Assembly (NCBI GenBank): GCA_015233135.1
Contig: JADFYH010000003.1
Coordinates: 1 to 43,020, forward strand
DNA: 43,020 nucleotides
Origin: Deltaproteobacteria bacterium
Lineage (GTDB): Bacteria > UBA10199 > JADFYH01
Reading direction: 5' to 3'
Part shown: piece after piece, positions 5,792 to 35,360 of the stretch
Position numbering within the stretch: the stretch's first letter is position 1
Layout of the letters: each line of letters begins with the position of its first letter
Position numbers and translations under genes: made by a program
The notes under the pieces: model-generated
What the model was told of the DNA's origin: nothing
The model's input: the letters and a program-made list of their open reading frames with translations, nothing else
Database searches by the model: none

Positions 5792-5808
5792 GGGATACAT
5801 TAATTAAG

Positions 5809-6024
5809 AACTTGAGTTCCGCAGATTTTAAGAATGATTTGTCTCAAAAGTCCTCCCTCCCTTGAGGGGAGGGAGCTAGAGGGAGGGTGGTCGCTGATGT
5901 CGTTTGCATCAAAAGTCACCCTCACCCTAACCCTCTCCCCTCAAGGGAGAGGGGAAATACTTGTTAAATCAGTATTTATTGGAAATAGCGAAATTTACAT
6001 CTAAAAATCTGCGGAACTCAAGTT
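5809..6024. mobile_element. MITE-like element, copy 1
   Basis: A roughly 215-bp element with 20-bp perfect terminal inverted repeats: ACTTGAGTTCCGCAG... at the left and its complement ...CTGCGGAACTCAAGT at the right. The interior holds G/C-rich hairpins (CCCTTGAGGGG and CCCCTCAAGGG) that also pair with each other across the centre. If the ends are ACTTG...CAAGT, it is flanked by the direct repeat TAAGA at 5805-5809 and 6024-6028. It carries no ORF. It starts 17 nt after the spoVG stop. A second copy is at 34060-34270. Confidence 0.8.
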
Positions 6025-6034
6025 AAGAATTGAG

Positions 6035-32418: not shown

Positions 32419-33525
32419 ATGGGTCAAGAAATCTCCCTCAAAATTGAAGCCCTTGCCTTTGAACTTGGTTTTTCCCAAGTGGCCTGGGCCCCTCTTGAAA
32501 AAAACTCTCAGGCTGCCAAACGTTTTAAACAGTGGCTCGAGGCCTCGTATCAAGGGGAAATGTCTTATTTGGAACGGGGACTTGAAAAACGGGAAGACCC
32601 CGAAAAAATTTTACCTGGAGCGAAAAGCATCCTTTGCTTAAGTTGGGGTTATTCTAAAAAAAAGCAGTTAAAGGGTAAAATTGAAAGCCCTTTTATTTCG
32701 CGTTATGCCTGGCAAGAAGATTATCATCTTATCCTTCAAAAAAAATTAAATTTGCTTCAAAAGCAGTTAGAACAATATTTTCCTCAGGCTCAATTTAGAT
32801 CCTATGTCGACACGGGGCAGGTAATGGAGAAGCATTGGGCCTCTCAAGCCGGACTAGGCTGGATAGGAAAGCATAGTAATTTAATCCATCCCAAACAGGG
32901 CTCTTATTTTTTCTTGGCTTCTATTTTGACAGACCTGCCTTCTGATTCTCTTGCAGGGCCTGTTTCCGATCATTGTGGAAACTGTCAAGCCTGCATCGAT
33001 ATCTGTCCCACCCGCGCCATTGTGGCACCTTATATGGTGGATGCACGTCTTTGCATTTCTTATCTGACCATCGAACTCAAAGGTCCCATCCCTCGCGAAT
33101 TACGGCCGCAAATCGGTGCTCATGTATTTGGTTGTGACGATTGCCAGGAGGTGTGCCCTTGGAACCGCAAGGCAAAATTACCCTTAGATTTTTTAAGATC
33201 TGCCTCAGTGGAGGAACTACATTTTTATTTAAAGTTAGATGCACAGGCCTTCAAAAAATATTTTAAAGAGTTGCCCATGCTGCGTCCAAAACGTCGGGGT
33301 TTTTTAAGAAATGTCTGTGTGGTGTTGGGAAATCTAAAGAAAAGGGAATCGGTCCCGCTGCTTATCCAAGCCTTGCAAGATGAAGAAGCCCTCATTCGAG
33401 GTCATGCGGTCTGGGCCTTGGGACAATATGCAGATTTAGAGATCCAAAAAGAACTGGAAAAAACTCTTCAAAAGGAAACGGATTTATGGGTAAGGGAGGA
33501 GATATGCCAAATTCTGAAAAAATAG
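32419..33525 (+). CDS. queG: Epoxyqueuosine reductase QueG
   Basis: QueG reduces epoxyqueuosine to queuosine in tRNA, using cobalamin and two [4Fe-4S] clusters. The 368-residue protein has the N-terminal motif [34 protein letters not shown] near residues 133-156 at the cofactor site, and the ferredoxin motifs [12 protein letters not shown] and [15 protein letters not shown]-terminal HEAT-like domain covers about residues 300-368 ([24 protein letters not shown]). The final 22 bases overlap folE, so both are co-transcribed. Confidence 0.95.
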
Positions 33526-34061
33526 CTTCTTTAGTGCGTCAACTGCTCCAAGAATTAGGAGAAGACCCCGATCGTGAGGGGCTTCAAAAAACTCCTCTTC
33601 GCGTTGCAAAATCGTTACAATTTCTTACTAAAGGTTATCAAGAAGATCCCAAAGAAATTATTCATGCCGCCAAATTTACCGAAAAATATTCCGAAATTAT
33701 TTTGGTGAAAGATATTGCGCTTTATACCCTGTGCGAACATCACCTGCTTCCCTTTTGGGGGCATGTGCATGTGGGTTATATCCCACGGGATAAAATCATC
33801 GGCTTATCCAAAGTAGCACGCCTGGTGGAGGTGTTTGCGCGAAGGCTGCAGGTTCAAGAACGCTTGACGACACAAATTGCAGAAAATTTACAACGAGAAC
33901 TCAAACCGTTGGGGGTGGCCGTGGTGATTGAAGCCGAACATTTGTGTATGCAAATGCGAGGGGTTCAAAAGCGGGGTGCAAAAGCAGTGACCTCTGCGAT
34001 GCTGGGAGCCTTTGAATCCAAGCTGGCGACCCGGCAAGAGTTTATGCATTTGATAAAATAA
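33504..34061 (+). CDS. folE: GTP cyclohydrolase I
   Basis: FolE converts GTP to dihydroneopterin triphosphate, precursor of folate and, through QueD/E/C, of queuosine. The 185-residue protein has [18 protein letters not shown] with zinc ligands C77 and H80, the third ligand C148 in HLCMQMRGV, and [12 protein letters not shown] chose ATG 33504, preceded by GGGAGGAG, over an in-frame ATG at 33486. Its pairing with queG fits a queuosine role. Its stop TAA shares two bases with the left end of the MITE-like copy 2. Confidence 0.95.
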
Positions 34062-34270
34062 CTTGAGTTCCGCAGATTTTAGTAAGAAGCCACTCTGAAA
34101 AGTCCTCTCTCCCTTGAGGGGAGAGAGTCAGAGAGAGGGTGATCCTGAGTGCACTAGAAATACCCCTCACCCTGACCCTCTCCCTCAAGGGGAGAGGGGA
34201 AATGCTTTATAGATGGGTACTTGCCAAGAATGAGCAAAAAATGATTCTTAAAATCTGCGGAACTCAAGTT
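34060..34270. mobile_element. MITE-like element, copy 2
   Basis: A 211-bp second copy of the element at 5809-6024, with the same 20-bp terminal inverted repeats and the same internal hairpins (CCCTTGAGGGG and CCCTCAAGGGG). It begins in the folE stop codon and ends 7 nt before the mqnE ATG. No clean 5-bp duplication is evident here, although the flanks are AAAT-rich on both sides. It has no ORF. Confidence 0.8.
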
Positions 34271-34277
34271 AAATAAT

Positions 34278-35360
34278 ATGAAAAAAAATCTACAAGACAT
34301 CAAAAACAAAATCCTCAGCAACACCCGCATCAGTGACGATGATTGTCTGATCCTCTATCGCTCCAACGACCTCATTGGTCTGGGTGAAATCGCCAACATT
34401 GTGCGAGAGCGTAAAAACGGGAATGCCACTTATTACAACATCAATCGCCACATCAACTATTCCAATGTCTGTTATGTGGAATGTAAATTTTGCGAATTTG
34501 GGCAGCCTAAATCTTCCACAAAATCTTATCTGCTCTCTTTGGATGAAATGAAGAAAATAGCCGCAGAAGCGGCTGGCGTAGGGGCTACCGAGTTGCATAT
34601 GGTGGGCGGTTTACATCCCGATTATAAAATTGATTATTATGAAAATTTGCTGCGAGAAATTAAAAGGGTTGTCCCTAATCTTCATTTGAAGGCCTTTACC
34701 GCCGTCGAAATTGATTACTTTGCCAAAGTCAGCAAGCTCAGTGTGGAAGAAACCTTAAGACGTTTGATGGCCGCAGGACTCGATTCTATCCCGGGTGGTG
34801 GGGCAGAAATTTTTGCAGAAAAGACGCGTAAAGAAATTTGTCCAAACAAAATTGAGGGAAGGCGTTGGCTGGAAATCCATCGCAGAGCCCACAAGCTGGG
34901 CATCCGCAGCAATGCTACGATGTTGTACGGACACATTGAGAGCGACGAAGACCGAGTGGATCACCTCAGAAAATTGCGTGAACTTCAGGATGAAACCGGT
35001 GGTTTCCAAACCTTCATTCCTCTCAGTTTTATTCCTTTCGATACTCCTATGGCTCATATCCCCGAGCCGACAGGGCTGATGGACCTGAAACAAATCGCAG
35101 TCAGCCGAATCTACCTCGACAATTTTGATCACATCAAAACCTACTGGATCATGAGCGGCCTCAAAATGGCGCAACTTGCACTTTCTTTCGGGGCAGACGA
35201 TTTGGATGGAACGGTGACCCAGGAACGTATCGTCCACATGGCCGGCGCAAAGACGCCGGAGGCTTTGTCCGTCGAGACTATCCGGAAGCTAATCCGCGAA
35301 GCAGGGAGAGATCCTGTAGAGCGGGATACTTTGTATAAGGTGATTCAGAAGGTGGCTTAG
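34278..35360 (+). CDS. mqnE: Aminofutalosine synthase MqnE
   Basis: MqnE is a radical-SAM enzyme that joins the MqnA product to SAM, giving aminofutalosine in menaquinone synthesis. The 360-residue protein has the cluster motif C65-x3-C69-x2-C72 in SNVCYVECKFCEFG. It also has ELHMVGGLHPDYKIDYY (about residues 105-121), LHLKAFTAVEIDYF, GLDSIPGGGAEIF and SNATMLYGHIES, the MqnE rather than MqnC pattern. The start has no visible Shine-Dalgarno sequence, and the MITE-like element ends just upstream, so its promoter probably lies in or near that element. Confidence 0.93.
   Translation: MKKNLQDIKNKILSNTRISDDDCLILYRSNDLIGLGEIANIVRERKNGNATYYNINRHINYSNVCYVECKFCEFGQPKSSTKSYLLSLDEMKKIAAEAAGVGATELHMVGGLHPDYKIDYYENLLREIKRVVPNLHLKAFTAVEIDYFAKVSKLSVEETLRRLMAAGLDSIPGGGAEIFAEKTRKEICPNKIEGRRWLEIHRRAHKLGIRSNATMLYGHIESDEDRVDHLRKLRELQDETGGFQTFIPLSFIPFDTPMAHIPEPTGLMDLKQIAVSRIYLDNFDHIKTYWIMSGLKMAQLALSFGADDLDGTVTQERIVHMAGAKTPEALSVETIRKLIREAGRDPVERDTLYKVIQKVA

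Follow-up and report, generated by a model that had tools for sequence, protein, structure and literature searches.

The window analysed here, a stretch of 43,020 nucleotides, carries two copies of a short repeated element, MITE1. A sequence-only reading had proposed MITE-like copies at 5809-6024 and 34060-34270, and both are present, with exact ends at 5811-6022 and 34062-34268. The terminal inverted repeats, first described as perfect and 20 bp long, are indeed perfect, but the true repeat comprises 19 bp (CTTGAGTTCCGCAGATTTT) and starts with CTTGAG; the leading A has to be excluded because any of the four bases can precede CTTGAG in the copies. Similarly, the duplication flanking the first copy is real, but it is 7 bp long and reads TTAAGAA, not TAAGA. 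The G/C-rich internal hairpins, to which that reading attached no interpretation, consist of two intrastrand-triplex motifs in inverted orientation. At copy 2 no exact target duplication was found (7/8 bases match). The features are as follows:

5804..5810, no strand: left target-site duplication of copy 1, TTAAGAA, one half of an exact direct repeat of 7 bp around the element
5811..6022, + strand: MITE1 copy 1, subfamily A, 212 bp
5811..5829, + strand: left terminal inverted repeat of copy 1, CTTGAGTTCCGCAGATTTT
5853..5887, + strand: left triplex motif of copy 1, CTCCCTCCC-ttgag-GGGAGGGAG-cta-GAGGGAGGG; 9/9 match between third strand and mirror of the purine strand
5919..5953, - strand: right triplex motif of copy 1, exact TMECO pattern (PMC4666352), CCCTCTCCC-n5-GGGAGAGGG-tta-GGGTGAGGG
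6004..6022, - strand: right terminal inverted repeat of copy 1
6023..6029, no strand: right target-site duplication of copy 1, TTAAGAA
34062..34268, + strand: MITE1 copy 2, subfamily B, 207 bp
34062..34080, + strand: left terminal inverted repeat of copy 2
34105..34139, + strand: left triplex motif of copy 2, CTCTCTCCC-ttgag-GGGAGAGAG-tca-GAGAGAGGG; mirror 9/9
34164..34198, - strand: right triplex motif of copy 2, exact TMECO pattern
34250..34268, - strand: right terminal inverted repeat of copy 2

Copy 1 has a computed folding energy of -107.7 kcal/mol, whereas shuffled sequences average -56.8 (z -10.9). Neither window copy contains an ORF of at least 100 aa, and an Rfam scan of the window at gathering thresholds returned four tRNAs and nothing else.

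The MITE1 family and its transposition

The genome (2.61 Mb in 64 contigs, 98% complete) contains 46 sites that match the 20-mer of the repeat with at most two mismatches, the reversed control giving 0. MITE1 does not occur merely twice, as the window alone had suggested: the genome-wide count is 20 two-ended and 6 one-ended copies, the latter at C1:98009, C43:11336, C54:2762, C3:102713, C4:27822 and C8:23068. The same count contradicts the absence of further copies, which had been named beforehand as an outcome that would speak against a MITE. Sixteen of the 20 two-ended copies are 207-208 bp long and the rest measure 212, 211, 417 and 136 bp. Twelve copies, copy 2 itself counted, share at least 99% identity with copy 2, so MITE1 has spread recently. 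In the alignment, window copy 1 and the copy on C29 form subfamily A, and those on C5, C1:763 and C48 form subfamily C; C55:1288 is probably a recombinant, to judge from its B-like left and C-like right half.

Exact direct repeats lie just outside CTTGAG...CTCAAG in 15 of the 20 two-ended copies, the six one-ended copies being left out of this count; they measure 6 bp in six cases and 7 bp in nine. Shuffling the right flanks among copies gave a mean of 0.1 and a maximum of 2 such cases in 2000 rounds. An exact duplication of at least 6 bp is absent in the other five two-ended copies, window copy 2 among them. The 136-bp copy (C7, L064:1574-1709), reduced from the hairpin pair to a single hairpin that lacks third strands, has no target duplication. 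Target sites are mostly AT-rich.

MITE1 is thus short, multi-copy and non-coding, with terminal inverted repeats and target-site duplications, as MITEs are. The MITE identity proposed from the window is borne out by copy number, exact inverted repeats, target duplications and the lack of a reading frame of at least 100 aa in the window copies. Mobilisation in trans, likewise proposed, is supported by the finding that all 46 repeat sites are short copies or lone ends with no transposase between them. The family that includes the two window copies is a genuine MITE family.

The shell of MITE1, as far as visible, is private to this lineage, since the repeat is nearly absent from class, species and viral collections. 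The source genome is the sole member of its family in the collection, and the element was found in none of the relatives searched. Across 46 genomes of the same class, the 18-mer of the repeat with at most one mismatch was recovered from this genome and, as one single one-mismatch site, from one other. The exact 18-mer occurs in the species-genome collection (84,980 species) in five isolated stretches, one each, and a second repeat was found at none of these five loci. An exact scan of viral contigs for the terminal inverted repeat gave 0 matches.

The core, an inverted pair of triplex motifs

While the shell is that of an ordinary MITE, the cargo is unusual. The TMECO (earlier PIT) intrastrand-triplex motif is given in PMC4666352 as 5'-CCCTCNCCC N3-6 GGGNGAGGG N3 GGGNGAGGG. 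The right motif follows this pattern exactly in 19 of the 20 two-ended MITE1 copies, all but the one of 136 bp. In the left motif the stem differs from TMECO (CTCCCTCCC or CTCTCTCCC), and the third strand mirrors the motif's own purine strand at 9/9 positions in 17 of these 20 copies and at 8/9 in one; in the remaining two the left motif is split by a second MITE or, in the 136-bp copy, absent.

The middle of MITE1 (about query 38-147) recurs elsewhere in this genome without the shell. A core alignment comprised 4 elements and 14 further loci, of which 3 are decayed elements, 8 are free copies in this genome and 3 come from relatives. In it the similarity of the free copies starts and stops at about the same two points flanking the hairpin pair, and the shell-core junctions are common to all three MITE1 subfamilies. 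The MITE1 core is identical in kind to free triplex-motif pairs. Beyond this genome, 32 of 59 others searched gave matches to the element; the matches listed all fall within about query 35-156, which is the core, and many of them are a single hairpin. A looser motif pattern yields 57 sites in this genome against 0 for its reversed control. Among the 46 genomes of the class, 23 contain it, and the control, too, gives 1-3 matches in some of them.

An antiparallel purine-motif triplex requires a third strand that mirrors the purine strand of the hairpin. Perfect C/T-rich hairpins were taken from the retrieved loci (310 readings, 218 from this genome and 92 from relatives), and the 9 bases after each hairpin were compared with the mirror of its purine strand, G being required for G and A or T for A. 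Matches of at least 8/9 peak at a spacer of 3 bases (75/218 readings in this genome and 46/92 in relatives). Hairpins were read off both strands, so about half of the readings are expected to be tail-less. At seven other spacers at most 21 readings reach this score (spacer 2, this genome), otherwise 0-3.

Symmetric stems cannot separate a mirror from a direct repeat, so asymmetric stems were chosen. From 133 distinct readings with asymmetric purine-only stems, the 59 with a tail of at least 5 G in 9 were scored, representing 15 stem variants. In this sample, which is non-random in that many loci were picked for resemblance to the MITE1 core, the mean mirror score is 8.17/9 versus 5.94 for permuted stems (maximum 6.59 in 5000), the permutation retaining the same tails and the sites of one genome being related rather than independent. 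A score of at least 8 is reached at 50/59 sites by the mirror rule and at 6/59 by the direct-repeat rule. When each of the 15 variants contributes a single tail, the mirror score is 8.4 versus 5.8 for permuted stems, a value reached in 0/20,000 permutations; 14 of the 15 variants score at least 8, the failing one being a single site with a score of 3. For the variant GGGGGAGGG mirror and direct scores are tied at 8.

Ordinary pairing fails to explain the mirrored third strand, because a mirror of the purine strand does not complement the C strand. The co-variation is explained by the geometry of an antiparallel purine-motif triplex as predicted from the sequence. Its occurrence in 14/15 variants is evidence at the sequence level that triplex geometry, and not the hairpin alone, has been kept. 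That the MITE1 core may form a physical triplex in the cell is our inference. For TMECO itself, PMC4666352 describes a triplex that forms in vitro but was not seen in vivo by footprinting, and sites that are unstable.

Candidate mobilisers

The autonomous partner was sought in the assembly by several routes. No element combining CTTGAGTTCCGCAG ends with a transposase is present in the assembly, the 46 sites resolving into the 20 pairs and 6 one-ended copies. The related transposase that the sequence-only reading had suggested looking for was thus not found with the same terminal repeats; what did emerge is a resemblance to IS1634-type ends. A scan with a 14-base repeat gave 72 sites, 24 of them further 2-mismatch sites, with 30 for the reversed control. 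C28:21672 and C42:16402 (1 mismatch in 14) were considered as ends of an autonomous copy and rejected, both lying in apparent coding sequence.

For a survey of contig ends, both ends of contigs were retrieved and smaller contigs whole. Repeats are shared by 71 of the 128 ends in four groups, which are the ends of high-copy elements, and none of the 128 bears the MITE1 repeat. One high-copy element has ends GATGCATTTAATTACTGGGGGTA and is represented at 18 and 17 contig ends, among them L147, L149, L152, L158 and L163-L165. The flank preceding most of its left ends is partly conserved and resembles TTATCGGCA-N8-AAAAGTTGC, and its right-end flanks vary, which on sequence grounds suggests either site-specific insertion or a conserved subterminal part. 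Two more groups (19 and 17 ends) begin with TG (e.g. L136, L143, L155 and L134, L161, L171) and are putatively of IS21 type.

The PF01609 (DDE_Tnp_1) profile found one place in the genome, below its cut-off, namely a fragment with which C13 begins and which belongs to the IS1634 family by NCBIfam. It is adjoined by an IS21-family transposase frame (L132:934-2112; 148.8 bits, cut-off 160). Of the four types of IS1634-type end in this genome, two start with CCCGACTTCCGC and two with CCCGACTTTGAC. In a comparison made post hoc, the resemblance having already been noticed, the MITE1 terminus CTTGAGTTCCGC shows an anchored identity of 9/12 with the CCCGACTTCCGC end types (0/20,000 shuffles), 6/12 with the other two IS1634-type ends and 4/12 with the ends of other high-copy elements. 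The mismatches to the IS1634-type ends, all of which start CCCGACTT, fall at positions 2, 3 and 6. When gaps were allowed, two of the four IS1634 end types gave a significant match, one of these two alignments being unanchored at the terminus. The published IS1634 end pattern is C-----YT, in which three positions are fixed (PMC2266710); the MITE1 end fits it, a fit to these three positions only.

Published IS1634 duplications measure 5-6 bp (PMC2266710). An intact IS1634-family element in the relative G017 has a 7-bp duplication, ATTGGCT (67% aa identity over the shared part), an IS1634-like element in the relative G044 one of 4 bp, and for an IS1634-type copy in this genome one of 5 bp can be deduced. 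The best-matching ends are tied to IS1634 via a 92-aa N-terminal fragment, and the opposite end only via its similar terminus. The fragment resembles an intact IS1634 transposase weakly (26% over 53 aa, E 1e-4), matched no NCBIfam model and had no match in the plasmid collection. In 385 genomes it has 3 weak matches outside this genome, at whose loci neither CCCGACTT nor CTTGAGTT was found. On termini and duplication length, we lean slightly towards the IS1634 family as the candidate mobiliser of MITE1.

A mobiliser from another DDE family, e.g. the ISPepr1 subgroup of IS4, lost or outside the assembly, is a less likely source. ISPepr1 elements prefer AT-rich targets, make 7-8-bp duplications and have ends of the form YT-AA-YTT---A (PMC2266710), and by manual count the MITE1 end matches 6 of the 8 defined positions; a lost partner would also agree with the failure to find one in the assembly. 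Against it, the PF01609 search gave a single sub-cut-off place, IS1634-family by NCBIfam, and the anchored 9/12 likeness to the IS1634-type ends here beats all 20,000 shuffles.

It has further to be asked whether a transposase of quite another kind moves the hairpin pair. The shell would be incidental if the pair were a REPIN that a REP-associated tyrosine transposase (RAYT) moves alone. Free pairs with sharp ends do exist, and the genome has one Y1 transposase gene (C11:24113-24361) just over the Pfam cut-off, with REP_Tyr_transpos as its best NCBIfam model. This model matches with 45 bits against a cut-off of 80, however, and four C-rich arm patterns searched for are absent from the 3.2-kb locus around the gene. 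REPINs and GTAG REPs are recognised by a GTAG tag and a linked RAYT, and here the aligned cores have no tag and the weak Y1/RAYT gene has none of the searched motifs nearby. The inverted repeats and target duplications of the two-ended copies are signs that the entire unit was moved by DDE transposition, and we consider the RAYT scenario improbable.

Two side observations concern transposases and palindromic repeats of this genome in general. The Y1/REP-associated-type transposase of C11 comprises 232 aa (L131:1093-1791, minus strand). Two ORFs of C43 (L062:2227-3279 and L062:3375-4448) contain C-rich/G-rich hairpin repeats seemingly in frame, with peptides such as GPLTLPSPPRGEGK...SPLGGEGQGEG and TPNPLLVKEGVRKGEG; they resemble Rickettsia palindromic elements.

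Nested insertion, gene context and known systems

In the MITE1 copy at C15:43413-43829, the left triplex hairpin has a second element, MITE2, inside its loop. The terminal inverted repeat of MITE2 is GCATAGGTATCTACACATCT; the element is about 203 bp long and is present in 12 two-ended and 6 one-ended copies (loci L243-L271), e.g. C15:43470-43672 (L250), C29:30246-30448 (L258) and C3:79657-79859 (L245). By eye, the flanks are C-rich on the left and G-rich on the right in all 12 two-ended copies. By script, a perfect flank stem of at least 7 bases is present in 10/12, as compared to 46/1000 random positions and 1/20 MITE1 copies. Exact duplications of 6-8 bp flank 7/12 copies, or up to 10 if the element starts with CATAGG. 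Judged by these flanks, MITE2 is mostly inserted in the loops of triplex-type hairpins. MITE2 also carries triplex motifs itself: all 12 two-ended copies have at least one at 8/9 or better (spacer 2 or 3), and 11/12 have an inverted pair at 9/9. From the contents of MITE1 and MITE2, inverted triplex-motif pairs are carried by two MITE families with different ends. The MITE2 copy at C3:110402 has a different motif pair, one motif of which is shared by C29:27384.

Regarding gene context, none of the 20 two-ended MITE1 copies lies inside an ORF of at least 100 aa, ORFs overlapping an element by at most 30 bp being scored as neighbours. A few copies overlap the ends of neighbouring ORFs by 5-21 bp, and the C3:70951 copy overlaps the start of a 244-aa ORF. 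Copy 2 abuts the stop codon of ORF 33486-34061, and ORF 34278-35360 (radical-SAM/CofH-type) starts 9 bp after it; with so tight a gap, the transcript between the two neighbours probably includes a very stable hairpin. Intergenic copies are likely to put such a hairpin into transcripts as a side effect. Domestication of MITE1 as a transcription terminator or mRNA stabiliser would fit its very stable fold, the lack of two-ended copies within long ORFs and the several copies that start or end 0-30 bp from a stop codon, but it is quite unlikely, as neutral survival of insertions gives such positions too and TMECO had neither promoter nor terminator activity in earlier work cited by PMC4666352. A host function is unnecessary to explain MITE1.

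Taken together, the data make it probable that MITE1 is a non-autonomous DNA transposon with an inverted triplex-motif pair as cargo and, most likely, an IS1634-type mobiliser acting in trans. A DDE transposase, most likely of the IS1634 family, would have recognised the 19-bp inverted repeats in trans and pasted the element into AT-rich intergenic DNA, making a 6-7-bp target duplication. An ancestor would have acquired the triplex pair, consisting of the TMECO/PIT motif and a co-varying variant, once and before the subfamilies split, and the pair would since have been copied as cargo; we infer a single acquisition of the core. A more far-reaching scenario, which we put forward as speculative and rather doubtful, sees triplex DNA as the hub of a nested transposon network: unrelated DDE-type MITEs would repeatedly capture pairs, MITE2 would land in triplex-hairpin loops while carrying a further pair, and the geometry would be selected, with the three-strand co-variation as its trace, because folding matters to the cycle. 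If true, it would answer how TMECO/PIT motifs reached hundreds of bacterial genomes.

The MITE type and the TMECO motif are both already known; here a triplex-motif pair is the cargo of a transposed element. In the titles and abstracts searched, which mostly exclude subscription journals, no description of triplex motifs as MITE cargo was evident. Since a matched pair forms the core of an element with clear marks of transposition, one route by which triplex motifs spread becomes testable. MITE1 suggests one way in which such widespread, puzzling repeats get copied around genomes, and it is the motif pair together with the co-variation that makes the finding worth following.

Several known systems share parts of this organisation. 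With the TMECO/PIT sites of E. coli, MITE1 shares the exact pattern in its right motif and the paired arrangement, E. coli MG1655 having five inverted pairs and the MITE1 core being one; E. coli deletions that keep one hairpin resemble the 136-bp MITE1 copy (PMC4666352). The difference lies in mobility: the MITE1 pair sits inside a mobile element flanked by target-site duplications, whereas Holder et al. 2015 report that the TMECO sites of E. coli were unconnected with transposons, phages, plasmids or mobility genes (PMC4666352). REPINs, too, have two palindromic units in inverted orientation like the MITE1 core, but the latter has neither GTAG nor a RAYT flanked by these repeats, and it possesses a third-strand tail that mirrors the purine strand (Bertels and Rainey 2011, PMC3116915). 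Nearly the dimensions of MITE1 are seen in the IS1634-derived MITEs of Methanosarcina (associated with ISMba11 and ISMac10), with 247-249 bp, 15-23 copies and inverted repeats of 18-20 bp, the ISMba11 MITE having 247 bp, 23 copies, IR 20 and DR 6 (PMC3852290). MITE1 differs from them in that no IS with matching ends was found, and in its duplications of 6-7 bp and its triplex-pair core, the comparison covering dimensions and ends. The nesting recalls QMITE2 of Coxiella burnetii, a 150-190-bp MITE with a palindrome targeted by IS1111; its palindrome is a GTAG REP and its guest an IS, while the guest of MITE1 is a second MITE (PMC5896051). Finally, ISs that target REPs (ISPpu9, ISPa11, ISPsy8 and others) insert in palindromic repeats as MITE2 does, but MITE2 is an element of 203 bp with inverted repeats that carries a triplex pair itself (PMC1525189).
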